63,046 nucleotides of DNA, from NCBI GenBank assembly GCA_017458125.1, contig JAFTGB010000023.1:1-63046 (forward strand), given 5' to 3'. Both the position numbers and the translations under genes were made by a program. This stretch comes from Prevotella sp. (lineage in GTDB: Bacteria > Bacteroidota > Bacteroidia > Bacteroidales > Bacteroidaceae). Below, piece by piece: positions 30,054 through 62,891 of this stretch. Each line of letters opens with the position of its first letter. The first letter of the stretch is position 1. Under the pieces are notes generated by a model. It did no database searches. It had not been told where the DNA came from and worked only from the letters and a program-made list of their open reading frames with translations.

Positions 30054-32327
30054 TTATTTCATTACAAAGATGGTGGATTGTTCATTTTGACGGATAATAT
30101 AAACTCCTCTTTTTAAGGATGATTTGACATCACCGAAGTCTCCCAAACAAACACCATGGAGCGTGTATACTTTACCCTGTCGTATGGGTTGATTATGTTG
30201 AAGAGCATTCGCTATACTTGTACTTTCTTCTTTGAAAAGCCGAAAGTTATCAACAAAAATACCACCTGTATTGATTCGTCCGTACATCTTATATTTAAAT
30301 TCATTGTCAGCGAATACCACAGGGACTTCTACATTTTCCCAGTCATTGATAAGCATATCTGTAGAGTATATTCTATATTCACCGTACTGGTCTTCAACGT
30401 ATAATCTAAAAGAAGGAGGCGGAGCAGTGGCCAGAGTCTTTGTGCAGATGTCGAATGCAATCGTGTAATTCTCACCAGACTCGACAGCAATAGGCTTGCT
30501 TGCAATTTCTGATTCGCTGGTTGCATTGTCTTTGCCGGAAAAGAGCATGAGCAGACTTTCTCCATTAGTAGGAGAAGGAATGTATTCGGTATTTATGCCA
30601 ATATCTCCTGTTCTGTAGGTACACCACGAATTTTTTCCTATAACAGAAAGAATGGTCATTCTATTTTCAACCTTATCTTCAAATCCTTCGAAGTATTTTA
30701 AATCCTTTTCAATAGGTTGGTCAGGGTCAATAGGTTCTGGTTCACCGCTGTTACCACTTGTAACAAAAGAAACAGTACCATCAGCCCCTTGTATGGCAAT
30801 ATTGGATATGGATACTTTAGCGGCACTGCCATTCCATGCCACAGCAGCAGGTGCGGTGTCAGCAGAAAATGAGCTTATGTTTCGAGTGCCGGGAAAAGGG
30901 CACCCTGAAGAATTGATGTCACCGTAATTGCGAGCAGAAGGGGTGGAACCAGAAGCACAAACAGGATACATAGCCTGCGGATGTGATGCGTTAATGGTGT
31001 TGGTAGAGCGATACCTTTCAATATTGGGGTGCACATGGTAGATCATTAGTCCTTCACCTGGGAGTTTGGCATCAAAACCGTGTCTCTGCCTGTTTTCTAA
31101 AAGAAAATAATCACCGCTACTGCCAGTTTCCATCTTGTAAACGGGTGTCAGTTCGGGATTGTTGGTTTCCATCCTTGGCATTGTGATTTGTTGGTCTGAC
31201 GTTAATGTTTCTTGCTTATTCCACCCAAAGATGACAGAACGCACAAAGGGGTTGAAATTCGGTGGTGTCTTTCCGTTATCATTCCAGCTTCCGCCTGCCA
31301 TGATGTCCCACTTTCCTGTTCCAGCATATTCACCGCCTGTACCGTAGTTGGTGTCATAATAGTCCATGGCTCCAAGAGCATGGCCGAGTTCATGGCACAC
31401 AACTCCAATATGAGAAATGTCTGAACCGTAATTTCCTCTAAGTTCTGGTGAACACGAGTAGCCCGATAATGAGTAGCCGATATCATTTTTGAGATTGATA
31501 CGATGAGGGTACTCATGTGCCCAGATCGCATTTGCAGCACCGCCAGCTTCTTCTCCATAGCCAGCATATATAATGTGGACATTGTCTATCAGTCCATCTT
31601 CGTCATTGTCGTACCGACTGAAATCGACAGTGTCAGGCAGACTTTTCATGGCTTCTATGCATAGGTCTAAAGCATGTGCGTCGCTACCGCCTGTTGAAAC
31701 GTTGGCACCATAATAGTTCATATTGTTCTCCGAGGTATAAGGGCCATAAATGTCGGACACATAGTCCAACTGGCCTTGAGAGGCAAATCTATAGTAGTCT
31801 CTAACACTTCCTGTAACATCATTTTCGTGATAGTCGACGGAGTTAAATAAAGAGACAAAATCTTTTCTCTCAGTTTTGAATCTCACATCTTTATATTGCA
31901 TCAATATAACCAGTGCTCGCCTTTCTCCAACGATGGCGTCAGTTGTATTTGCTCTGCGTGGTTCGGCGGCTACACGGCGTGTTGTAGCCGAGATATCAGG
32001 GACGAGGCCTTTTGAACAGTTCAACTTAAACTTTTTCAGATGTTCAGTCTCGTCGTCTATAGACATTAGTTTGAAGGATGATTTTACTACGTTTCCGTTA
32101 CTGTCTTTTTCAGCATACCACCATCCTTTCTCATCGCATAGAATGGTGAAACCGTCAGAGGTTACAGCATATTTGTTGTTTTCGTCACCTCTTAAAAAAA
32201 TTGCTACCTCCTTGCCATTATCTGTTTTAACCATCACCTTGTATGGATATGCTGACACTGCAAAGGCAGAACCAATGCTAAAATAAAGCAGTAACAATAA
32301 TGAATAGGCTCTATTGTTGATCTTCAT
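30054..32327 (-). CDS. M6-family secreted metalloprotease with adhesion-type C-terminus
   Basis: Predicted secreted zinc peptidase of 757 residues. The start is MKINNRAYSLLLLLYFSIGSAFA (signal peptide); an ATG 10 codons upstream is unlikely. A propeptide-like region (about 25-130) precedes the M6 domain with VCHELGHALGAMDYYD (HExxH at about 312) and FDAKLPGEGLMIYHV. Then comes a linker rich in Pro and Asp, a beta-sandwich of the choice-of-anchor J type (about 540-710), and a tail GVYIIRQNEQSTIFVMK that looks like a type IX secretion signal. It lies 64 bp after a BACON lipoprotein gene on the same strand. Its codon use is AT-rich compared with flanking genes. A relative with the same fold is at 41937-43751. 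Confidence 0.85.
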   Translation of the reverse strand: MKINNRAYSLLLLLYFSIGSAFAVSAYPYKVMVKTDNGKEVAIFLRGDENNKYAVTSDGFTILCDEKGWWYAEKDSNGNVVKSSFKLMSIDDETEHLKKFKLNCSKGLVPDISATTRRVAAEPRRANTTDAIVGERRALVILMQYKDVRFKTERKDFVSLFNSVDYHENDVTGSVRDYYRFASQGQLDYVSDIYGPYTSENNMNYYGANVSTGGSDAHALDLCIEAMKSLPDTVDFSRYDNDEDGLIDNVHIIYAGYGEEAGGAANAIWAHEYPHRINLKNDIGYSLSGYSCSPELRGNYGSDISHIGVVCHELGHALGAMDYYDTNYGTGGEYAGTGKWDIMAGGSWNDNGKTPPNFNPFVRSVIFGWNKQETLTSDQQITMPRMETNNPELTPVYKMETGSSGDYFLLENRQRHGFDAKLPGEGLMIYHVHPNIERYRSTNTINASHPQAMYPVCASGSTPSARNYGDINSSGCPFPGTRNISSFSADTAPAAVAWNGSAAKVSISNIAIQGADGTVSFVTSGNSGEPEPIDPDQPIEKDLKYFEGFEDKVENRMTILSVIGKNSWCTYRTGDIGINTEYIPSPTNGESLLMLFSGKDNATSESEIASKPIAVESGENYTIAFDICTKTLATAPPPSFRLYVEDQYGEYRIYSTDMLINDWENVEVPVVFADNEFKYKMYGRINTGGIFVDNFRLFKEESTSIANALQHNQPIRQGKVYTLHGVCLGDFGDVKSSLKRGVYIIRQNEQSTIFVMK

Positions 32328-32391
32328 TTTAAAAATGCTAAATAGCAGGTGCGTCATAAACGCACCTGCATATCATACGTTTGAAATGAAT

Positions 32392-33651
32392 TTATTTAAT
32401 AATTTTGTTCTTTATCTGAGAACGCCTGTAAGTCTTGTCAGGCATGATGGAGTTCTTGTTTCTTGCTATTTTTGAAGGAGCCGAGTTGTAGTTGCTTAAA
32501 TTGAATTGGAAACCGATAAGGTCGGAAGAAACAGTGCCGTCCTTAAAGACTCCCCAAGCAGAGGCAAAAGCCCAAGGAATGTTTGCAACGTAGGGTCTTA
32601 TGTCAGCAGGAAGACTGGTACTGTAATAATTGAAGGTGTGATTATTAGGATAGTCTGTAATAATTTCCCACCCCAACTGTTCTGCTAACCAGTGCTTCTT
32701 TTTGTTCTTTAGGTAGTAATTGATTTCAAAGGCGTGAACCACAGAGTTAACCTGATCGGTATAAAGGCCATAGACGATATGGTATGTGTTGCAGTATCCT
32801 TCTTTCTTGGCATCAAAACTGAAACCTCCCCAGTTGTTGAAATAAGCAATGTTCTCGAAACTGACATAGGCATCTTTGTCAGCGTCCAAGAATGCAGGTG
32901 TGTTCACCTTGGTCTTTTTTAATTCGCCGGCCTTATCGTCATTGTTGTACGCAATGGTTACAATGTAGTAAGTAGATCTCTCGGTAATTCTGTTACCATT
33001 GTGGTCACTACCCACTGTTGTAAGATAGTCGTCAACGAACTTCAGCTCTTCTTGTTTGTTGAGTTCTGTTATCATTTCTTTGTCGGTCATTCTGTTAAAT
33101 TCATTTTCGGACAAGACAATATATTGGAACAAGTTGACCGTTCCCGTTGCCGAATACTCCCATGCTAAACGATTGTAAAGTGCTACGATGTTTTGGGGTT
33201 CAACATAACTCAAAGGTTTCCCTGCTTCTTGGGTTACGTTGATTGTGGCACTTGCGCCAGAACCCGATAGGGTTATCGTGGCTGTACGCGGACTTGACGA
33301 AGGGTTTTCGCTGGTTGGATATACTACCATTTCCAACGTACCATTACCATTTGTCGGAGAAACAAAGAGCCAATCGGCATCTTTGCTCATTGTCCAACTT
33401 GCTGTGGAGACAACGGCAACGGACTGCTTATAGTCAACGCCGCTCTTCCCGTCAAAGTCTCCTACAAATCCTAAACTTGTACTTGTACTGCCATTCACTA
33501 AAACAGATGTAGTGGGTTGGGGCTCTGGACTGGGCGTTGGGGTTGGTGATGAATCGTCTTTATCATCGCCACCGCAAGAGGCAAAACCAATACTTAGCAT
33601 GGCAAAAGTCATTATTGCCATTGCTCTGAAGAGATAATTTTCTTTTTTCAT
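32392..33651 (-). CDS. BACON-domain lipoprotein
   Basis: Predicted surface lipoprotein of 419 residues. The start is MKKENYLFRAMAIMTFAMLS, with lipobox IGFASC followed by the usual GGDDKDD export-like stretch and a PTPTPSPEPQP linker. A BACON domain follows (about 80-140: VVSTASWTMSKDADWLFVSP then ATITLSGSGASATINVTQEA). The larger C-terminal part is not recognised. It has conserved-looking Trp/Tyr segments and ends in a basic tail (RRSQIKNKIIK). BACON modules bind glycans or mucin in several gut proteins, but here the ligand is unknown. The gene is upstream of the M6 protease and behind a long structured leader (33726-33942). AT-rich composition is shared with the M6 gene. Confidence 0.75.
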   Translation of the reverse strand: MKKENYLFRAMAIMTFAMLSIGFASCGGDDKDDSSPTPTPSPEPQPTTSVLVNGSTSTSLGFVGDFDGKSGVDYKQSVAVVSTASWTMSKDADWLFVSPTNGNGTLEMVVYPTSENPSSSPRTATITLSGSGASATINVTQEAGKPLSYVEPQNIVALYNRLAWEYSATGTVNLFQYIVLSENEFNRMTDKEMITELNKQEELKFVDDYLTTVGSDHNGNRITERSTYYIVTIAYNNDDKAGELKKTKVNTPAFLDADKDAYVSFENIAYFNNWGGFSFDAKKEGYCNTYHIVYGLYTDQVNSVVHAFEINYYLKNKKKHWLAEQLGWEIITDYPNNHTFNYYSTSLPADIRPYVANIPWAFASAWGVFKDGTVSSDLIGFQFNLSNYNSAPSKIARNKNSIMPDKTYRRSQIKNKIIK

Positions 33652-33725
33652 GTCACTTATTATTTTAGTTATAGAAAATAATGCACACACAGCGAAGTAC
33701 AATAGAATAGCGTGGCCATTCTTAT

Positions 33726-33942
33726 GCACTTAACTTTAGGGGCGAGTCTGGAATGGAACCCCTGACACTATATAAGAAATGTCCACGCCATTGACGTGAG
33801 CATAGCTCAAAGTGTCAGAGATAGCCCAAACAGGCTATTCCCTATGCCATTAATTCGACTATTCCAAATGAGTTTTCCAGACTTCTTCAGTTAAGTGCGA
33901 AATAATAAGCTTATGCATCTGCATCTCGGATTTCTCCCCGAG
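33726..33942 (-). ncRNA. Structured RNA: leader of the BACON gene or 6S-like RNA
   Basis: A minus-strand RNA starting near 33942 would fold into a long rod. GCACTTAACT (33726-33735) pairs with 33889-33898, AGTCTGGAA (33745-33753) with 33875-33883, and CTGACACT (33762-33769) with 33811-33818. A hairpin ATAGCC/GGCTAT (33821-33838) also forms, plus a 5' hairpin TCTCGG/CCGAGA (33924-33943). GCATAG (33800-33805) can also pair with CTATGC (33842-33847), giving an alternative fold or pseudoknot. It has a strong promoter (33949-33980) and no gene in this stretch. It could be a stand-alone RNA (6S-like or Bacteroidales-1-like) or a 290-nt regulatory leader of the lipoprotein/M6 operon. No tRNA or tmRNA signature is present. 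Confidence 0.6.
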
Positions 33943-53547: not shown

Positions 53548-54847
53548 CACCTGTAGCATCCTGATTGTGGCACTGCTGATGGTGCTGTGCTCCACGCCGC
53601 TGTGCGCACAGTCGGCGTTCGACCACATCGTGCGCAACCGCTTCTTCTCGGCCAGCAACTACTGCATCTACCCCGACAGCGTGCCGTCCAGGATGACGAC
53701 GCCACCCGCAGGCAAGTACCCCTTCTACATCTCGCACTACGGTCGGCACGGCTCGCGCTACCTCATCAACCGCAAGGGCTACGACATTCCGTACCGCATG
53801 CTGTGCAGGGCCGACAGCATGGGTGAGCTGACCGCCACGGGACGGCAGGTGAAAGAGGAGCTGGCCGGCATCATCAGCGACTCCGAAGGGCGTTGGGGCG
53901 ACCTGTCAGGCATTGGCAAACAGCAGCAGCGCAACATCGCCAGGCGCATGGTGGAGCGCTTCCCCGAGGTGTTCCGCGACAACGCGCACATAGAAGCCCG
54001 CAGCACCACCGTCAACCGCTGTGTGCTCTCCATGGGCACTTTCCTGCAGCAGTTGGCGGCTATATGTCCCAAGGTGGACATCACCATGGATGCCATGAAG
54101 AACGACATGTACTACATGAACCATCAGGACAGGCTGCTGCGCGACAACATGAAGGATGAGGCCGCGCTGCAGGCCTACCACGACTTCAGTAGCAGGCGCG
54201 AGCACAACCCCGCGCTCATGCGCGCACTCTTCGTTCACCCCGACAGCGTAGCTTCCGTTGTTGACGAGGTGCAGCTTAACTACTACATCCTCAAGAGCGC
54301 GCTGATACAGCAGAACACCCACATGGGCGAACGGTGCCGGCTGCTCGAACACTTTGCACTGGAGGACATACACCGCTTCTGGCAAAAGGAGAACGCTTGG
54401 TGGTACATCATGTACGGGCCGTCACCGCTCAACGGCGGCAACCAGCCCTACAGCCAGCGGCACCTGCTGCGCCGCATCATCAGCGACGCCGACAGCTGCA
54501 TCAGCCTGTCGCAGCCCGGTGCCATGCTGCGCTTCGGTCACGAGACGGTGCTGCTGCCGCTGGTGTGCCTGATGGGTGTCAACGGCTTTGACCAGCGGTT
54601 GGACGACCTGGAGGATTTGGAGGAGTACGGCTGGTGGGCCTGCCGGGTATTCCCCATGGCTTCCAACATCCAGTTGGTGTTCTATCGCTCAGACCCTAAA
54701 GACAAGAACGTGCTCGTCAAGGTGCTGCTCAACGAGCAGGAGGCCACCTTGCCGCTGAAGTCCGACCATGCTCCTTACTACCGATGGAAGGACTTCCGTA
54801 AATATTTCCTGAAAAAGTTAGACGACTACGACGCTGCCCGCCGTTAG
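53516..54847 (+). CDS. Histidine acid phosphatase-like exported enzyme (second copy)
   Basis: Paralogue of the preceding gene, 443 residues. It starts inside it by 32 bp, so translation is probably coupled. Signal-type segment SILIVALLMVLCSTPLCAQS, RHG motif in YISHYGRHGSRY (about 75) and FGHETVLLPL (about 341). The two enzymes keep the same order of motifs and share AWWY, QPYSQRHLLR/QPYTQRNLLR and the C-terminal YYRW...LKKLDDYD. They arose by duplication and may differ in substrate or timing. The stop overlaps the sufE-like stop by 4 bp on the other strand. An ATG two codons in (53522) is an alternative start. Confidence 0.85.
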   Translation: MTMTSSNNSRNTCSILIVALLMVLCSTPLCAQSAFDHIVRNRFFSASNYCIYPDSVPSRMTTPPAGKYPFYISHYGRHGSRYLINRKGYDIPYRMLCRADSMGELTATGRQVKEELAGIISDSEGRWGDLSGIGKQQQRNIARRMVERFPEVFRDNAHIEARSTTVNRCVLSMGTFLQQLAAICPKVDITMDAMKNDMYYMNHQDRLLRDNMKDEAALQAYHDFSSRREHNPALMRALFVHPDSVASVVDEVQLNYYILKSALIQQNTHMGERCRLLEHFALEDIHRFWQKENAWWYIMYGPSPLNGGNQPYSQRHLLRRIISDADSCISLSQPGAMLRFGHETVLLPLVCLMGVNGFDQRLDDLEDLEEYGWWACRVFPMASNIQLVFYRSDPKDKNVLVKVLLNEQEATLPLKSDHAPYYRWKDFRKYFLKKLDDYDAARR

Positions 54848-55269
54848 GCCTTCTTCGACTGGAAGGCCAGGGCGTACATGCGCATCTGCTTCACCATGGC
54901 TAACAGACCGTTGGAGCGGGTGGGCGACAGGTGTTCCTTCAGCCCTATGCGGTCGATGAAGTAAAGGTCGGCATCGAGTATTTCCTGTGGCGTGTGCCCT
55001 GACAGCACGCGGATGAGCAGCGTCACGATGCCCTTGACGATGAGGGCGTCGCTCTCGGCCGTGAAGCGGATGATGCCCCCCTCGTAGTCGGCCTGAAGCC
55101 ACACGCGGCTCTGGCAGCCGTCTATCAGGTTGCTCTCCGTCTTATAGCGTTCGTCCAACGGTTCCTGCTCGTTGCCTAAGTCGATGAGCAGCTGATACTT
55201 GTCCATCCAGTCGTCAAAGCCGGAGAACTCTTCTATGATTTCGTCCTGAATATCGTTGATTGTTGCCAT
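54844..55269 (-). CDS. sufE: SufE-like sulfur acceptor protein
   Basis: Predicted cytosolic protein of 141 residues that accepts sulfur from the SufS desulfurase for iron-sulfur cluster building. The start MATINDIQDEIIEEF is chosen because a TACCTTTG -7 box lies at 55293-55300. The catalytic Cys is in NLIDGCQSRVWLQA (about residue 51), which is diagnostic. The rest fits the family in length and content. It stands apart from other suf genes here and converges with the phosphatase pair, sharing 4 bp with its neighbour. Confidence 0.93.
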   Translation of the reverse strand: MATINDIQDEIIEEFSGFDDWMDKYQLLIDLGNEQEPLDERYKTESNLIDGCQSRVWLQADYEGGIIRFTAESDALIVKGIVTLLIRVLSGHTPQEILDADLYFIDRIGLKEHLSPTRSNGLLAMVKQMRMYALAFQSKKA

Positions 55270-55292
55270 GATGCTATTGTCTTTTTCGGCTG

Positions 55293-55300
55293 CAAAGGTA
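55293..55300 (-). promoter_or_regulatory. Promoter -7 box of sufE
   Basis: The minus strand reads TACCTTTG, 23 bp upstream of the chosen sufE start. Confidence 0.6.
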
Positions 55301-55388
55301 CTGCAAACGGATGGAAATGCCAAACAATCCTGAAAGTTTCTTATGGCGAGAGTTGCCTCTTCCTGTGCATTCTTTCTGTGCAAAAACG

Positions 55389-57011
55389 TCACTCCAGCAG
55401 TATCACCTTTGCTTTGCTGTTGTCCATTCTGGGCATGGTACTTCCCACAGGAGCATTAATATAGGTAGGGTCACAAACCGTATATCTCACCCCATCCAGC
55501 ATGATATAGTCACCTGTCACGTCACTGTTGAAGTGTACCGCCGTGGCCAGATGCCCAGGGTAAAAGACAAGAACAACCTTAAGCCCCAGCAAGTCACGTA
55601 CCAGTCTTGAAAACAGAATAGAGCGGTCTTCACAGTCACAATATGGATAGTATAATGACTCTTCTGCGAAGAATGCTCTGTCGCAGCCCCACACCTTGTC
55701 GTCATATTCATATACGAAGGCCGTTTGAACCCAGTTTAATAGTCTCTCTACCGCTTCCAACTCATTCTTTCCTTTTAGCTTTTCACGAAGAGCAGGATAT
55801 AGCGCTTCCCTCGCTGTATTCTCCAAAGGCGTATTGGCATACATAGCCCAACGCGTCATGAAGTTAAAGTCAAGCATAGACGATGGATAGTCGTTGTAGA
55901 ATGTCATTAGGTTTTTGTTTGCACAAACTTTCACCTGCATGTCACCATATCTTTTCGATGTCAGTATGCGTTCAGCCGATTTTTCTACTGCAAAACCCTG
56001 CTGCTGAGGTATTAGCAGGGATAGCGGCTTTTCATTGGGGAAGGCAACCTTGCATATTTCTACATTCTTTTCCTCCCCATTAAAGGAATAATAGTCCTCG
56101 CCATCAATGTTAAAGAAACCTTTGCCATAGATGCAGTGCTTTGTTCCATACAACATGCATAATCTGTTTCCTGCTCTGGCAAGTCGCATTTGATAGCCCG
56201 ACTGGCAATACACATACGCCATCAGTAGTGTCGCGGCATTACCCTTGCCGAGGCAAGCCTCTGCCATTTTGTTGAGCATGTTGAGGTAAGCCCAGTCACT
56301 TAGTTTTTTTGTGATTCGTAGCTCCAGACAGTCACGAATGGTATTGTTATATGCAATGCCTGAAAGTCGCTTCCATATATCAGACACTGTTTCTTCAGAA
56401 CAGTCTTTCATGTCGAACCATTCATCATCGCTGAAGCGTACTTTCATCTCCGTCCCATACACCATAAATGATGTCCATTTTTCCTGTGGCTGCGGTTGTT
56501 CACGAATAGGTGCTATTGGCACGGGTTGCGGCTCTGGCACGGTTGGCGTCACCACTTCTTCTATCGGCAACGGATTATCCTTCTTCGGCTTGTTCTTCTC
56601 TTTTTCATCCATTTCTACAGGAGGGATGTTTTCGTCCTTAGGCTTTGGCATGGCAGGCATCACTTTGTGCTGTTCCCATGCCTCTTTCACGAATTCTGCA
56701 TACTCACGGTTGACTTTGTCACGGAAGTTCTCATAGTCTGCCTTAGCCTGCTGTTTGAATTCATTATATGCATCTTCAAACGTCCTTGGCTTTTCTTTCA
56801 CCGTGGTATCTCCCTTCTCACGGGTCACTGTTGCTGGGTCGCTGGCCTTCTTTTCAGCCAGTTTCTCCTTCCCCTTGGCCTTGTCTTTGGCATACTGTAC
56901 ATACTGCTTCGACAGCTGCGCAGTCGACTTCTTGTTTTTCTTGGTCTGTGCCATTGTTCCGACACTAAATGCCATGAGGAGCATCAATCCCATTATCAGT
57001 CGCTTTTCCAT
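55389..57011 (-). CDS. Exported transglutaminase-like protein
   Basis: Predicted exported protein of 540 residues. The start MEKRLIMGLMLLMAFSVGTM is used; the gene before it ends 1 bp upstream. A charged, Lys/Glu-rich, probably coiled region (about 25-125) precedes a Pro-rich linker (about 126-180). The C-terminal domain has a Cys-His-Asp triad typical of transglutaminase-like proteases: YPYCDCEDRSILFSRL (about 457), YPGHLATAVHF (about 489) and CDPTYINAPVG (about 512). It is translationally coupled to the CHASE2 membrane protein upstream, suggesting the pair work together in the envelope. Cross-linking or peptide cleavage are both possible; target unknown. Confidence 0.8.
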   Translation of the reverse strand: MEKRLIMGLMLLMAFSVGTMAQTKKNKKSTAQLSKQYVQYAKDKAKGKEKLAEKKASDPATVTREKGDTTVKEKPRTFEDAYNEFKQQAKADYENFRDKVNREYAEFVKEAWEQHKVMPAMPKPKDENIPPVEMDEKEKNKPKKDNPLPIEEVVTPTVPEPQPVPIAPIREQPQPQEKWTSFMVYGTEMKVRFSDDEWFDMKDCSEETVSDIWKRLSGIAYNNTIRDCLELRITKKLSDWAYLNMLNKMAEACLGKGNAATLLMAYVYCQSGYQMRLARAGNRLCMLYGTKHCIYGKGFFNIDGEDYYSFNGEEKNVEICKVAFPNEKPLSLLIPQQQGFAVEKSAERILTSKRYGDMQVKVCANKNLMTFYNDYPSSMLDFNFMTRWAMYANTPLENTAREALYPALREKLKGKNELEAVERLLNWVQTAFVYEYDDKVWGCDRAFFAEESLYYPYCDCEDRSILFSRLVRDLLGLKVVLVFYPGHLATAVHFNSDVTGDYIMLDGVRYTVCDPTYINAPVGSTMPRMDNSKAKVILLE

Positions 57012-57012
57012 A

Positions 57013-58158
57013 TTATTTGTTTTTATATGCTGTTTTACATTCATCATATATGCTCTCAGCCAACACTAAGAAGGCCATGGCTGACAAAGCCCAGCCTAAG
57101 TTCAGGCTGATATCGTATTTACAGAATAGTATAAAGGCGACCCACATCCATAGAGCCATCCCAAAAAACAACAGGATACTTCTTACGAATGAGGCTGACA
57201 GCAAGAAACTCGCAAGCCTGTTCTTCCGGCTTTTGGCAAATGTTTTGTAGGACGAGAATACTACTTGGGTCAGAAACACCAGTGCAAACGACAGCAATAC
57301 TGTTAGCCAGCCATTCAGTTCTCTAACCTCACTCTGATCTAATAGCGTCTCAATGGAATAGGCCAATAGTTCTACCCCTGCCATCTTTCCTAATGGCGTA
57401 TAGTGCATGTCCTGTTCGTCTTTCATGGCGCCAAAAAGCACCACCTTATCCTTAATCCATTCATGATGCTTGTTAATGGCATTAGGCTCCACAACTCTGA
57501 ATCGTTGTGGGGTGAAGTTGATGTTCATATCCCTGTCTTCCGTCGGCATCAGCTCCGTACCGCTTGCCATTCGTGCAACTTGAAGTATAAAGGAGGGCGC
57601 CAACTCTGTCTGATGTTTCTTTCCCAGACTCAGCATACGCTTCATGCCTCCATAGAGATTGCGTTGCATATTCGTAAAGCCCTCACAAATGCTGTCGGCA
57701 GCAAAAAACGAGTGGACAGCATCTGCATAGCCCGTGCTGTCGTTCGCATAATTCAAGAGTTTATACGAAAAAACAATATTAGGATTATTTGCAGCCACTT
57801 CCCGCATCATGTCATCACCTATGCTGTCCTCCTTCAGACCCTCGAATACGACATCTACACCTATCACCTTTGGCCTTTGGTTCTCAATCTCACATAGTGC
57901 CTCAGCCAATTCTCGTCTGCTGTATAGTTCCGACATGTCCACGATTGTCAATGCGTCGCTTACATCTCCGCTGTCCGTGTCCTGAAGAATCTGGTAGTAA
58001 ATGTCCGTCATCTCGAAGTCCTTCACCACCTGTGCTATCGGACTCAGAAACGAGAGATTCAAGGCGAACACTGCAAACATCCCCACAACAATGAATGCCA
58101 ATGCCGTAATTATAACGTGCTGAAACAACTTTCCTTGCCTAATATTTTGCATTATCAT
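57013..58158 (-). CDS. CHASE2-domain membrane protein
   Basis: Predicted inner-membrane protein of 381 residues. An N-terminal membrane segment (VIITALAFIVVGMFAVFALN) is followed by a CHASE2-type periplasmic sensor domain with LTIVDMSELYSRRELAEAL, VIGVDVVFEG and VVLFGAMKDEQDMHYTPLGKMAGVE. Near the C-terminus are several membrane helices (about 280-375). No kinase, cyclase or protease domain follows, which is unusual for CHASE2 proteins. Two ATGs (58158 and 58152) are possible starts; the longer open frame covers the divergent antitoxin promoter. The transglutaminase-like gene follows with 1 bp between, so it may be the signalling output. Confidence 0.8.
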   Translation of the reverse strand: MIMQNIRQGKLFQHVIITALAFIVVGMFAVFALNLSFLSPIAQVVKDFEMTDIYYQILQDTDSGDVSDALTIVDMSELYSRRELAEALCEIENQRPKVIGVDVVFEGLKEDSIGDDMMREVAANNPNIVFSYKLLNYANDSTGYADAVHSFFAADSICEGFTNMQRNLYGGMKRMLSLGKKHQTELAPSFILQVARMASGTELMPTEDRDMNINFTPQRFRVVEPNAINKHHEWIKDKVVLFGAMKDEQDMHYTPLGKMAGVELLAYSIETLLDQSEVRELNGWLTVLLSFALVFLTQVVFSSYKTFAKSRKNRLASFLLSASFVRSILLFFGMALWMWVAFILFCKYDISLNLGWALSAMAFLVLAESIYDECKTAYKNK

Positions 58159-58168
58159 TATTTCTTTA

Positions 58169-58176
58169 TACCTTTG
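58169..58176 (+). promoter_or_regulatory. Promoter -7 box of the toxin-antitoxin pair
   Basis: TACCTTTG lies 27 bp before the antitoxin ATG at 58204 and overlaps the upstream region of the divergent CHASE2 gene. Confidence 0.6.
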
Positions 58177-58203
58177 CCTGCGACAAAAAATAATATAGAT
58201 GAT

Positions 58204-58485
58204 ATGACGATTGTAAGTACAACTGAATTCCGGGCCAACCAAACCAAGTATCTCGGATTGGTAGATCGTGGCGAGCGAGTGATCTTGCGCACTCGCAAGG
58301 GAAGCTATCATCTGACCCCAGCCACCGACGAAGATGTTGAGGAAGCCAAGCGCGACGTAACAGCCGAGGTCTGCCAAGCATTGAAAGACTGGAAAGAGTA
58401 TTTGGATACAGGAAAGTCAGACAAGTTCCGACCCGCAAACGAATTGATTGATGAGTTACGAAATCTCCAGGCACAAAGACTTTGA
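58204..58485 (+). CDS. Type II antitoxin, Phd/YefM-like
   Basis: Predicted antitoxin of 93 residues. The start MTIVSTTEFRANQTKYLGLV is the usual Phd/YefM N-terminal DNA-binding fold, with GERVILRTRKGSYHLTP next. The C-terminal half (AKRDVTAEVCQALKDWKEYL) is the helical toxin-binding part. It overlaps the toxin gene by 35 bp, the common arrangement of such pairs, and would bind its own promoter just upstream. The open frame before 58204 overlaps the -7 box and is not used. Confidence 0.85.
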   Translation: MTIVSTTEFRANQTKYLGLVDRGERVILRTRKGSYHLTPATDEDVEEAKRDVTAEVCQALKDWKEYLDTGKSDKFRPANELIDELRNLQAQRL

Positions 58486-58795
58486 TGTTTCGATTAAACG
58501 CCTCGCCAAGCGTTATCGTAGCATATCTGACGATTACGAAGACTTTTTGGAATCGCTTGAGGAGAACCCTTTCCAAGGTGCTGAGCTCTGTCCCGGTATC
58601 CGCAAGATTCGTATGTCCATTGCGTCCAAGGGGCGAGGCAAGTCGGGTGGTGCCCGCGTCATCACGGCCAACGCCATTGTTGCCGAGCACGAAGGACGCA
58701 TAGCCCTCCTCACCATTTACGACAAGGAGGGTGCGTCCACCGTTAAGCTGAATGTCATCAAACAGATGGCGCGCGAACTTGGTTTCAACGTCTAA
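58451..58795 (+). CDS. Type II toxin, RelE/ParE superfamily
   Basis: Predicted toxin of 114 residues beginning MSYEISRHKDFDVSIKRLAK, the standard RelE/ParE first strand and helix. Further features are LCPGIRKIRMSIASKGRGKSGGARVI and IALLTIYDKEGASTV. The basic residues fit an mRNA-cutting RelE type, but a gyrase-targeting ParE cannot be excluded. It is coupled to the antitoxin by a 35-bp overlap. Its stop is 8 bp from the stop of the convergent caspase gene, so the pair sits tightly between CHASE2 and the caspase cassette. Confidence 0.85.
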   Translation: MSYEISRHKDFDVSIKRLAKRYRSISDDYEDFLESLEENPFQGAELCPGIRKIRMSIASKGRGKSGGARVITANAIVAEHEGRIALLTIYDKEGASTVKLNVIKQMARELGFNV

Positions 58796-58803
58796 CATTC
58801 CTT

Positions 58804-60606
58804 TTATCTCAACTTCAAGTTTCGCCAACTATTAGTCAATGTCTGAGAGGGTATGACGGTAGGCGTTTGGATCTTGTTGTTGATGACCACAGACTGCTGT
58901 TGCACTTGTTTTGTAACATAGTCCATTAGAGTTCCCATTTCAATATCACCGCCTGTGGTTTGCAATTTTTTTAATAGATAGTATGTAAATAATCCATGTT
59001 TTTGCTCTTCTATTGGATATGCTGTTTCAGAACCTTGGCATGCAGACAAAACAATCATTTTTCCTTTTGGCTGAATTTCTTTCGGTTTTATTGAAATTCC
59101 TCTCGATTCAACAAGCATTCCACCTTTTCTTTTGGCTCCGCTAAAACAAGCATCTAAAAGCACCACCGATTCTGATGGTAATTTTCCCAACTCTTCATAA
59201 ACATCTGTTAAATCTAAACCCGTACTAGTATTTTTGGCATATCCATCCACAGGTAATAGGTATGACGTGGACAAATTTTCAGCAGGGACACCGTGACCGG
59301 AATAATACAAAATAATTTTCTTAGCATTTTGAGTTGAAGCATTTGTAATTAGCCAATCTAATTCTCTTTTCATTTTATTTAATCCAGCATCTATAACGAC
59401 ATGAATATTATTTTCCGGAATACCCAATGTCTGATTGATATACTTAGCGACAACAACTCCGTCATTTTCTGCATATGGCACATATTGCTCATAGTCGTAA
59501 TTTTCATTTGCAATAATCAAAGCATATATATTGCTGTTTTTCTTCCCTGTTTGTGGAATATCAACATCTACGTCAGAGTCAACAGCTAATTTAGCCACAA
59601 CTTTCTCTTCCCATTCTTCATAAGTAGAATAATTAGCGGCATCTATAACCCCTTCATTGTAAAACATTTTTAATGGACCTGCATTTGAATTATCAATTAC
59701 AACATTCCCATCTTTGTCTTTCGAAACTATGTTGTCTTTCCAATTCCCCAAATCTATGATATGATTGTCTTCGCGTGATTTATAATACCATTTTAACGAT
59801 AAACGCAAATGTCTTTCATCCAAAGTCTTTCGATACAACTTTTCGTACACTTCCCCAAGCCTATCTTGAGCACTCCAATTTCCTTGGTCTGCGGCTTTTT
59901 GATACCATTTTGCTGCTTCACCCATATCTCGTTCCACAATAATTCCATCTTCAAAATACTTCCCTATATGATACTGAGCTCTATCAAACCCATTCTCTGC
60001 TGAAATTCTAAATAAACCATATGCCCTTTTAGAATCATTCTTATAGAATTTTGAAGCTAATAGGAAGGGGGCTTGCTGCATCTCAACTCCCTCTTTTACG
60101 GACTGCTCCAATACTTTTTTCATTGAAGCACTATCTTTCTCACTTTCATATATAATAAACAAATTTATTACAGAATATTTGGAACCTGTTTGATGATTTT
60201 CATTATTTATAGACATTATATAGTATTTCTTTGCATAGTCGTCATTTTGCATAAGTCCCTTTTTTGAACCATATCTATAATCGTACATTCTTCCAACATT
60301 AAATTGTGCATTTGCGAATCCATTCTCTGCTGCTTTAATGTACCAATTTAGGCCTTTTTCATTTTCATTCATACTTTCATAAAACAGGCCAAGATAATTC
60401 TGTGATATCGCATCACCTCTCTCTGCATAAGGTTTAACCAAAGCTATCCCTTCATTGTACTTCTCATTTTCAATCAGTTCGTTAGCTTTATCATAAACGA
60501 TTTCTATATCATTTCTACTAGAATTAATTACTTGCATTGTTTTCTCTTGGGCAAAAACCACTATTGTAAACAACAAACAACTAAACAAACAAAGAATTTT
60601 TTTCAT
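58804..60606 (-). CDS. Exported Sel1-repeat caspase-like (C14) protease, copy B
   Basis: Predicted exported protein of 600 residues with signal peptide MKKILCLFSCLLFTIVVFAQ. The N-terminal half has Sel1/TPR-type repeats (for example AENGFANAQFNVGRMYDY and AADQGNWSAQDRLGEVYEK). The C-terminal half is a caspase-fold protease: catalytic His in LYYSGHGVPAENL (about 438) and catalytic Cys in LLDACFSGAKRKG (about 485), with SACQGSETAYP. The Sel1 part probably binds partners or substrates in the periplasm. It lies 65 bp after an L,D-transpeptidase gene. Its composition is AT-rich. A paralogue is at 61158-62891. Bacterial caspase-like proteases are often tied to cell death or defence, but that is inference here. 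Confidence 0.88.
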   Translation of the reverse strand: MKKILCLFSCLLFTIVVFAQEKTMQVINSSRNDIEIVYDKANELIENEKYNEGIALVKPYAERGDAISQNYLGLFYESMNENEKGLNWYIKAAENGFANAQFNVGRMYDYRYGSKKGLMQNDDYAKKYYIMSINNENHQTGSKYSVINLFIIYESEKDSASMKKVLEQSVKEGVEMQQAPFLLASKFYKNDSKRAYGLFRISAENGFDRAQYHIGKYFEDGIIVERDMGEAAKWYQKAADQGNWSAQDRLGEVYEKLYRKTLDERHLRLSLKWYYKSREDNHIIDLGNWKDNIVSKDKDGNVVIDNSNAGPLKMFYNEGVIDAANYSTYEEWEEKVVAKLAVDSDVDVDIPQTGKKNSNIYALIIANENYDYEQYVPYAENDGVVVAKYINQTLGIPENNIHVVIDAGLNKMKRELDWLITNASTQNAKKIILYYSGHGVPAENLSTSYLLPVDGYAKNTSTGLDLTDVYEELGKLPSESVVLLDACFSGAKRKGGMLVESRGISIKPKEIQPKGKMIVLSACQGSETAYPIEEQKHGLFTYYLLKKLQTTGGDIEMGTLMDYVTKQVQQQSVVINNKIQTPTVIPSQTLTNSWRNLKLR

Positions 60607-60671
60607 ATTTTTTAATTATACTCTTTTATAAATACTAAACATCCTAAATAATTGTGTAATACGAAATTTCC

Positions 60672-61151
60672 TTAACCAGAAGGCTCTGATAGAATTTCAC
60701 ACATATCACCCTTTTTTACATATTTTACTACAGTTACAATATCATCATTCGTTAGCCTAATGCACCCCTGGCTACTTCGCGTCCCTATTGTTTCTGGGTA
60801 ACACGTACCATGAATTCCTATACTATTTGTGACAGGAGTTTTAAGTCTAATAAAATATGGCCCATAAGCACCTTTGACGGCCCCTTTCCCATCATGAAAA
60901 TCATGTGTCCATTTATCAGAATGTTGAATTTGTACTATTTTGAACACGCCTTCTGGTGTTTTACAATCACCCTTTTTCTTTTTATTCCCGTAGTTTTTCC
61001 CTATTGCGACACTGGCAGTATACAAAGTGTCGTTAGTAGGACTTACCACATATAATTTAAAGGTTTTTTTTACAACAACAATACGATTTTGACATATGCC
61101 TATTAATACAGACAATAATAGCAAGCTTATAATTAATAATCTTTTTTGCAT
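60672..61151 (-). CDS. Exported L,D-transpeptidase (YkuD-like)
   Basis: Predicted exported peptidoglycan L,D-transpeptidase of 159 residues that makes 3-3 cross-links or attaches proteins to the cell wall. Signal peptide is MQKRLLIISLLLLSVLIGIC. The domain runs from VVVKKTFKLYVVS to the active-site motif IGIHGTCYPETIGTRSSQGC (His at about 113, Cys at about 129, followed by IRL). It starts 6 bp after the upstream caspase gene and is followed by the second caspase at 65 bp, so the three are probably one transcript. The combination suggests cell-wall-linked action, unlike cytosolic bacterial caspase systems. Confidence 0.9.
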   Translation of the reverse strand: MQKRLLIISLLLLSVLIGICQNRIVVVKKTFKLYVVSPTNDTLYTASVAIGKNYGNKKKKGDCKTPEGVFKIVQIQHSDKWTHDFHDGKGAVKGAYGPYFIRLKTPVTNSIGIHGTCYPETIGTRSSQGCIRLTNDDIVTVVKYVKKGDMCEILSEPSG

Positions 61152-61157
61152 AATCTT

Positions 61158-62891
61158 TTATTTAAATTTGAGAGATTGCCAGTCATTGATTATTGTGGGT
61201 GAGACTCTTACAGTGGGGTGTTGACTCTTCCCATTTATAGCAATCGATTGTGATTGTATTTTAGTATTTAAATAGTCTTCAAGTTCTCCTAACGTACAAT
61301 CACCTTGACTTTCCTGAATTTTTTTCAGCAAATAATAAGTAAAGAGGCCGTGTTGTTGGTCAGAATACTGAAGAGCCGTTTCGTCACCTTTACAAGCCGA
61401 CATTACGACAACTTTCCCCGAGAGGGGTTGCTCCTTTGGCTTAATAGCAACACCGCGAGAAGATACCATCATATTGCCATCACGCTGCGCCCCACTGAAG
61501 CATGCGTCTAAAAGAATTATAGATGGTACTTTAGAATTTCCGAGTTGCTTATATAGATTCCCGATATCTAATCCCGTAGAAGTATTCCGCGCGTATCCGT
61601 CAATAGGTAAGAGATAAGCCGTTGAAAGATTATCTGCTGGTATGCCATGACCAGCATAATAAAATATAATTTTGGATTCCGCATTAAGTGAACTTTTTTG
61701 TACTAACATATCTATTTCATACTTCATCTTGTTTAGCGAGCAATCAGTAACATAAGTTACATTGCTTTTTGGAATACCTAATGCAGATGTGCAATATTTT
61801 GCAAATATTCTTCCATCATTTTCTGCATAAAGTACTGGACTTTCCAATTCATAATGCTCATTTGCAATTATTAGAACCCATACATTGGAATTTATCTTTT
61901 CGGTCTTAGGAATATTATAATCAACGTCAGAATCGTAACTAAATGCTTTTATAAGAAATGAACGCCAAGCTTGAAAGGTCGGATATTCTTCTGCATGGTA
62001 CACTTTCTCATTATATAATTCTTGTAAGTAATCATCTGTAAATATGTCATCTGCTCTTGCACACCATTTCAGTGTTAATCTTAAATATTTATCTGTATTG
62101 TATTTCCGATACATTTCTTCATACATGTGCCCCAAATATCTACGAGCACGCGTTTTAATACTACCCCATCCGTCATCATAGTCTTCTTCGCTTTCTGAAA
62201 CCAAAGTTAACAATCTAATAGCTTCCTCCTCGTCTTTGTCAAGTTTCCCGGCCTTACCCTTCATGTATTCACGTCCTAACCAAAACATTGGATACAATAC
62301 TTTTTTCTCAGCCAATTTTCTATGAATTTTTAAAGCTTCTCTATAATTATTGTTCTTATCTTCATCTTCCAAAAGTAGCTGGCAAAGATATATATGAACC
62401 AGATATTCTTCATCTTGATCCATATACTTTTTCAAAAATTCTATAGCTTCTTCTTTCTTGTTTTCTACCTTACGAAGAAGTATGGCGTAGTTCACAACAC
62501 TCCAATACTTGTCCTTTTCATTGCTTGATGATATTGCCTTCAAATAGTATTTTTTTGACAATTCTATGTTTTTTTCTACATTCCATTGTTTTCTTAAAGG
62601 ATCGAGCATAAGGGCTAAGTTAAAGAAAGATGGTACGTAGTTGTTTTCTGCAGCTTCCTTTAACCAAAAAATGCTGTTTTGCGTATCTCCCAATTTATCA
62701 TAACATTCCGCAAGAATAAATTGGTATTTGGCATTCCCTCCTTTTGCTTCATCACGCAACAAATCTATTACTGACTGTATTTGCCCTTTCTCCAAAAGCT
62801 CTATTGCTTTGTCATATTTAGTTTGAGCGCATGCTATACTACACGACAAAATACATAACAGGAAACATATTATTAACTTTAATTTTTTCAT
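61158..62891 (-). CDS. Exported Sel1-like caspase (C14) protease, copy A
   Basis: Predicted exported protein of 577 residues with signal peptide MKKLKLIICFLLCILSCSIACA. Repeats of Sel1/TPR type fill the first 300 residues (AECYDKLGDTQNSIFWLKEAAENN). The caspase-like domain follows with FYYAGHGIPADNL (His at about 414) and LLDACFSGAQRDG (Cys at about 462) and SACKGDETALQ. It is similar throughout to copy B, but the repeats differ more than the protease domain. It is the first gene of the cassette, only 26 bp downstream of a transposase remnant, and no TAnnTTTG promoter is visible in that gap. AT-rich. Confidence 0.88.
   Translation of the reverse strand: MKKLKLIICFLLCILSCSIACAQTKYDKAIELLEKGQIQSVIDLLRDEAKGGNAKYQFILAECYDKLGDTQNSIFWLKEAAENNYVPSFFNLALMLDPLRKQWNVEKNIELSKKYYLKAISSSNEKDKYWSVVNYAILLRKVENKKEEAIEFLKKYMDQDEEYLVHIYLCQLLLEDEDKNNNYREALKIHRKLAEKKVLYPMFWLGREYMKGKAGKLDKDEEEAIRLLTLVSESEEDYDDGWGSIKTRARRYLGHMYEEMYRKYNTDKYLRLTLKWCARADDIFTDDYLQELYNEKVYHAEEYPTFQAWRSFLIKAFSYDSDVDYNIPKTEKINSNVWVLIIANEHYELESPVLYAENDGRIFAKYCTSALGIPKSNVTYVTDCSLNKMKYEIDMLVQKSSLNAESKIIFYYAGHGIPADNLSTAYLLPIDGYARNTSTGLDIGNLYKQLGNSKVPSIILLDACFSGAQRDGNMMVSSRGVAIKPKEQPLSGKVVVMSACKGDETALQYSDQQHGLFTYYLLKKIQESQGDCTLGELEDYLNTKIQSQSIAINGKSQHPTVRVSPTIINDWQSLKFK

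Follow-up and report, generated by a model that had tools for sequence, protein, structure and literature searches.

We analysed a 63,046-nucleotide stretch of Prevotella sp. DNA (contig JAFTGB010000023.1; hereafter the window), which carries near its end two genes for caspase-like proteases of the Peptidase_C14 family (C14), caspase A and caspase B, on either side of a gene for a YkuD L,D-transpeptidase (LDT). In the genomes that we sampled, this caspase-LDT-caspase trio is not a recurring system. The unit that does recur very probably consists of a C14 protease, a CHASE2 membrane protein and a transglutaminase-like protein (TGL), joined at some loci by a DUF4384 protein and by an exported protein of about 220 amino acids that we labelled c3, the LDT being an add-on. 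An earlier note on this DNA had presented the three genes as a system; it had missed the recurring partners CHASE2, TGL, DUF4384 and c3, as well as the contig end and a toxin-antitoxin-like gene pair.

The three genes lie on the minus strand, separated by 6 and 65 bp, as the earlier note had described. Caspase A (61158..62891; 577 amino acids) has a rule-predicted signal peptide, weak Sel1/TPR repeats and a C-terminal Peptidase_C14 domain, and its sister caspase B (58804..60606; 600 amino acids) has a rule-predicted signal peptide, Sel1 repeats and the same C-terminal domain. Between them, the LDT (60672..61151; 159 amino acids) carries a signal peptide by the same rule and the motif HGTCYPETIGTRSSQGCIR. 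Pfam confirmed that two caspase-like proteases flank a YkuD enzyme: Peptidase_C14 matched caspase A (E 6.1e-21, 75.6 bits) and caspase B (E 2.4e-23, 83.5 bits) well above the curated cut-off of 21.4, and YkuD (PF03734) matched across the LDT (E 5e-19, 69.8 bits; cut-off 23.4). Sel1 repeats had been claimed for both proteases. They are clear in caspase B (E 7.9e-14), whereas the match in caspase A is sub-threshold (23.2 bits versus the curated 30.7). A contig scan with both patterns located in the Sel1 part returned 23 loci that match the repeat region only and no useful named relatives, and was set aside.

Both caspases retain the catalytic His and Cys (GHG and DACFSG motifs; H415 and C464 in caspase A). 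The LDT motif H...SxGCIR is likewise intact. The pattern H...SxGC[IV]R, which we take to be the catalytic motif of the YkuD family, was present at all 47 LDT loci scanned, the window's included; note that a stricter motif spacing matched 39 of the 47 and missed the window's own LDT. Caspases A and B share 38% identity along their full length and 57% within the C14 domain, and a tree built from 51 C14 domains places them as sisters (support 100/99). Because of this sister placement and the 38% identity we regard them, on sequence grounds, as duplicates, as had been suspected.

The three genes also share an unusual composition. Their GC contents are 0.350 (caspase A), 0.348 (LDT) and 0.344 (caspase B), with third-position GC (GC3) of 0.26-0.30, compared with 0.449 for CHASE2, 0.454 for TGL, 0.569 for the neighbouring SufE gene and 0.561 across the first 52 kb. 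The shared low GC and GC3, the tight spacing and the common strand suggest that the block was united before its arrival; caspase A, LDT and caspase B were therefore probably acquired as one piece. The window is the entire contig (C66 in our numbering), which ends 155 bp upstream of caspase A; a 26-residue reading frame in this interval gave no useful match. The gene content suggests a Prevotella-like host within the Bacteroidales. Caspase A had no match among phage records, and 10 plasmid records matched at 20.9-27.7% identity. No relative of the LDT was found in viral contigs, in a search that covered close relatives only.

Conservation of the gene order was examined in samples holding one genome per species of the genus, and in genomes of the order. 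LDT relatives (E 1e-18 or better) occur in 40 of 398 genus genomes and 14 of 295 order genomes, own genome included in both cases, with best identities of 56% (59% by BLAST) and 52%, respectively. We fetched 46 LDT loci with up to 1.5 kb on each side (33 of the 57 other genus places and all 13 order places), six of them shorter than 3 kb. At none of these 46 loci did we find C14, CHASE2, TGL, DUF4384 or c3; 34 of them were also checked by tblastn. Conversely, a YkuD profile run over 43 C14 neighbourhoods, which account for the other 49 places where C14 occurs in the genus, gave no match and detected only the window as positive control. Of the 27 other genomes bearing C14, G059 alone has an LDT relative too, and there the two genes lie on different contigs. 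In the genomes sampled, the order proposed in the earlier note thus fails as a conserved unit. A candidate C14 gene near the closest LDT relative (locus L156) was rejected: its product reads as a protein of Sel1 repeats that lacks a caspase domain, and no C14 profile match was found at this locus. At three other loci (L112, L157 and L158), LDT relatives with an apparent N-terminal membrane segment adjoin zinc-ribbon-like proteins; at L112 and L157 they also adjoin two large proteins of ~1020 and 900-950 amino acids, the latter with a GESQNGKS stretch.

The recurring set emerged from clustering of neighbour genes and from six-frame profile scans. Among 200 genus genomes, own included, C14 matched in 28 (49 places outside the window), TGL in 37 and CHASE2 in 34. 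Within 6 kb of the 43 C14 neighbourhoods, the six-frame scan detected DUF4384 in 23 (18 on the same strand), TGL in 16, c3 in 16, CHASE2 in 8 (one weak) and LDT in none, and 27 had one or more of the four partners. Counted by places, 19 of the 49 C14 places have a TGL within 6 kb, 18 of them with the TGL on the same strand; 16 of 47 TGL places have a C14 gene within 6 kb, and every one of these has a C14 gene on the same strand. By our estimate, chance would produce this proximity at well under 1%. The link between CHASE2 and TGL is tighter still: 14 CHASE2 homologues are close (E 1e-91 or better), and 13 of them have a same-strand TGL no more than 2 kb away, compared with 0 of 22 weaker homologues; the fourteenth is next to a TGL fragment at the edge of its contig. 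Note that longest-first maps of open reading frames (ORFs) can choose the wrong strand in GC-rich DNA. Such maps overlooked C14 genes at L107 and L111, so that our counts of 52 and 51 C14 proteins do not include them; counts of neighbourhoods were taken from six-frame profile scans and whole-genome matches.

The complete order c3>DUF4384>C14>CHASE2>TGL was found at L072, with three C14 genes, and at L085, and with extra genes at L106 and L107. The version without CHASE2 (c3>DUF4384>C14>TGL) is present at L071 and L073 and, in other families, at L211, L214 and L218. In the order, 79 of 344 genomes (own included) have a TGL. We fetched 20 of these neighbourhoods, mostly from the top of the list, and four carried c3, DUF4384, C14 and TGL on one strand without CHASE2; they fall in families f26 and f106, and one is in another order.

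In the window, the C14, CHASE2 and TGL genes occupy one strand within 6 kb (55.4-62.9 kb), with the toxin-antitoxin-like pair intervening. The CHASE2 gene (57013..58158, minus strand; Pfam E 7.3e-21) encodes a membrane protein with no further Pfam domain. Its ORF extends to 58377; since the alignments of most close homologues begin near residue 79-90, we placed the probable start at the ATG at 58158. The TGL gene (55389..57011, minus strand) encodes a protein with a signal peptide by rule, in an ORF that opens at 57047 with a likely start, by count, at 57011. Residues C472, H499 and D526 of TGL (numbered from the ORF starting at 57047) are invariant in all 27 family members, a putative catalytic triad assigned by inspection. 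Transglut_core was matched by 13 of the 27 (best E 0.0007) and DUF553 by four.

The missing upstream partners may lie elsewhere in the same genome, which has one DUF4384 match and two C14 matches. Here c3 and DUF4384 form a pair close to the end of contig C77, followed by an IS1595-type transposase gene (L227:8528-12174); this pair probably supplies the upstream half that the module in the window lacks. As C66 ends just before caspase A, a C77-C66 join broken at a repeat would restore the usual order.

The C14 proteins of the genus vary in the repeats that they carry: among 51 proteins we found LRR_5 in 15, Sel1 in 14, WG in 6, FGE-sulfatase in 2 and various TPR domains. The catalytic His and Cys are kept in 48 of 52 C14 matches; one is a fragment, and three WG-type proteins have Leu and Pro instead. 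These three (L072:9884-11935, L074:2015-3772 and L074:6218-8278) share their loci with intact caspases and are possibly regulatory pseudo-proteases. L074 carries a run of six consecutive C14 genes, of which the one at the contig start is a fragment. By sequence, the nearest solved caspase-fold chain to the C14 family profile is MALT1 (E 2.5e-4 to 8.4e-4), a paracaspase and eukaryotic signalling protein.

Bacterial caspase homologues have mostly been discussed as intracellular cell-death or defence proteases, and the earlier note considered export of these caspases unusual. By a home-made signal-peptide rule, used in place of SignalP, the predicted signal peptides of caspase A, caspase B, LDT and TGL end before Gln, and both caspases are probably exported, as the note had predicted. 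Predicted export is, however, usual here: the rule is passed by 47 of 51 C14, 14 of 16 TGL, 19 of 21 DUF4384 and 14 of 15 c3 proteins, compared with 149 of 374 other neighbours. These patterns suggest that proteins of the set reside in the periplasm.

Parts of this arrangement have precedents. A 2012 survey (PMC3501461) of C14 homologues (metacaspases and orthocaspases) reports, in its available text, proteins that resemble those of the window in having a C14 domain, Sel1, TPR or WD40 repeats and, in some cases, likely N-terminal signal peptides, as well as multi-caspase operons in Bacteroidetes and OmpA and amidase neighbours. The same text reports links to peptidoglycan amidases and mentions no LDT; the survey's main text lacks the words DUF4384 and transglutaminase, and CHASE2 appears there only in a cyanobacterial fusion. 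DUF4384 has been tied to caspase homologues in accessible passages of PMC6426788, PMC7475262 and PMC8283722, which also list inactive variants; according to the corresponding part of PMC6426788, these are rare in Bacteroidetes (10 of 1078). Baltic Sea Bacteroidetes metacaspases, one with Sel1 repeats, are described in PMC4933709, whose available text has nothing on CHASE2 or transglutaminase, and an excerpt of PMC8195603 mentions CHASE2 in a conflict system. Our literature search found no paper describing either the C14-CHASE2-TGL-DUF4384 set or a caspase/LDT/caspase set, in agreement with the note's statement that it knew of no such system. The EACC1-associated caspases (NF047832) have a related domain, but their model has a cut-off of 140 bits, and the window proteins reach 60.9 and 66.6. 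The LDT shares the PF03734 domain and catalytic motif with LdtE, ElsL and YkuD, but it has just 159 amino acids and does not reach the NCBIfam cut-offs.

The explanation that we favour, and consider fairly likely, is that the window holds an AT-rich, locally expanded version of an envelope gene set recurring in the order, a module for proteolysis in the envelope whose recognition domains can be exchanged and to which the LDT was added locally. We infer operon organization, and likewise the functional steps that follow. As export is common to the set's proteins, we propose proteolysis in the periplasm, a function towards which the balance tips slightly. The exported proteins would reside in the periplasm, where the repeat part of the C14 proteins (Sel1 here; LRR, WG or TPR elsewhere) could hold or recognise a ligand or partner in the envelope. 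The CHASE2 protein in the inner membrane may sense a periplasmic cue, the activated C14 proteases would cut envelope proteins, and TGL might act as a second cysteine hydrolase or as a cross-linker. In this genome, duplication produced two caspases with intact catalytic residues. The LDT, encoded between them, may modify or re-link the peptidoglycan where the module acts, or anchor products to it. If this is correct, the recurring exported set provides a concrete, testable case of envelope caspase-like proteolysis and gives a role to several unnamed gene families of the order, with the LDT as an example of a cell-wall enzyme that came to sit in a caspase locus.

Several observations weigh against this explanation. 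The set is loose and many of its members live alone: 16 of the 43 C14 neighbourhoods lack all four partners, a C14 gene is missing within 6 kb of TGL at 31 of 47 places, and 16 of the 20 order neighbourhoods fetched for TGL do not have c3, DUF4384, C14 and TGL on one strand. Contig ends come within 6 kb of a C14 gene in 14 of the 43 neighbourhoods, where absence of partners is weaker evidence; this applies to just 6 of the 16 without any partner. The window TGL taken alone falls below the Pfam cut-off (E 0.019), with no Pfam match at E 0.01, and the TGL profile found no transglutaminase among solved chains. In addition, the divergent toxin-antitoxin-like pair and a shift in GC (0.45 versus 0.35) part CHASE2 and TGL from the caspases, and the two halves may therefore have separate histories. 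Finally, the ends of C77 and C66 share no overlap, so that their join is one that we infer.

Other explanations of the locus make different use of the same evidence. That caspase-LDT-caspase is itself a conserved system for wall remodelling or lysis control would fit the intact LDT motif and the composition, spacing and strand shared by a block that was probably united before arrival; we found no second example at the 46 fetched LDT loci or in the 43 caspase neighbourhoods, the only one of the 27 other C14-bearing genomes to have both genes has them on separate contigs, and the closest LDT relatives (56-59% identical) sit in other contexts, making this idea very improbable. Whether the LDT simply travels along with the caspases, functionally unconnected to them, comes close to an even call. 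This would account for the absence of YkuD from all 43 other caspase neighbourhoods, but the LDT gene starts 6 bp past the caspase A stop, matches both caspases in GC and GC3 and encodes a signal peptide by rule. Also to be considered are secreted antibacterial toxins, with the C-terminal caspase and L,D-peptidase domains as polymorphic toxin domains. Both domain types are listed among toxin or releasing domains, in Bacteroidetes among others, in the available text of PMC3482391, and the C14 domain is C-terminal here, behind a signal peptide. Pfam detected no toxin-delivery domain in caspase A, LDT or caspase B, and the recurrence with CHASE2, TGL and DUF4384 would be left unexplained. We consider a toxin role most unlikely.

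The remaining alternatives concern what the set as a whole would do. In an envelope-side system against phages or competitors, the variable repeats would recognise attackers and the proteases would trigger killing or shedding. The patchy distribution (28 of 200 genomes), the variety of repeats (LRR_5, Sel1 and WG above all), the tandem arrays with catalytically changed paralogues and the AT-richness of the block in the window are consistent with such a role. Set against this, PADLOC (2023 library) returned only its generic caspase model for the two caspases (E 1.2e-10 and 4.5e-10) and nothing for seven partner or neighbour proteins, namely CHASE2, TGL, the toxin-antitoxin-like pair, c3 and DUF4384 proteins; caspase A is unmatched in phage records; and at other loci the GC of C14 genes is barely below distal GC (0.464 versus 0.486; lower in 30 of 47). 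A counter-invader function is therefore rather unlikely in our judgement. Somewhat improbable, too, is a housekeeping role in the maturation of surface proteins, analogous to that of C11 proteases, which like the caspase-type proteases belong to clan CD. The available text of PMC9308784 and PMC11169675 establishes that exported C11 proteases of Bacteroidales trim surface proteins and activate toxins, and fragipain, DpnA and DpnB, as portrayed there, resemble the window caspases in being exported caspase-related cysteine proteases. They are, however, C11 surface lipoproteins, whereas the window caspases are C14 proteins with repeats and other gene partners, in which Pfam at E 0.01 found C14 and repeats only and no C11 domain; patchy distribution and repeat variation also fit poorly with housekeeping. 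Another possible reading is periplasmic surveillance resembling that of NLR proteins, in which exported caspase arrays would carry swappable recognition repeats, some catalytically changed members would act as regulators, CHASE2 would be the sensor and TGL the effector, with the LDT added here. We think this reading unlikely.

Between caspase B and CHASE2 lie the two plus-strand genes of the toxin-antitoxin-like pair, both matched by Pfam below cut-off. One encodes a Phd/YefM-like antitoxin (58204..58485; E 0.0041), in an ORF that begins at 58117 with its ATG, by count, at 58204, and the other a RelE-like protein (58448..58795; E 0.0017). The pair (58117-58795) is divergent from its neighbours and has a GC content of 0.49-0.52; it was perhaps inserted into the locus.

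On the other side, a SufE gene (54844-55392) stands beside the CHASE2-TGL locus. SufE is also near a caspase or CHASE2-TGL locus at L092 and L163, in differing arrangements, and this may be a preferred site. An insertion hotspot at SufE was considered and rejected, as SufE occurs in 34 of 38 genomes searched and, apart from the window, only 2 of these have it ~4-6 kb from a module gene, which is too few. Finally, within a contig of GC 0.56, a second stretch of low GC (0.39-0.45) is found at 30054-33729; a large protein, by our reading an exported protease, and a second, lipoprotein-like one are encoded there.

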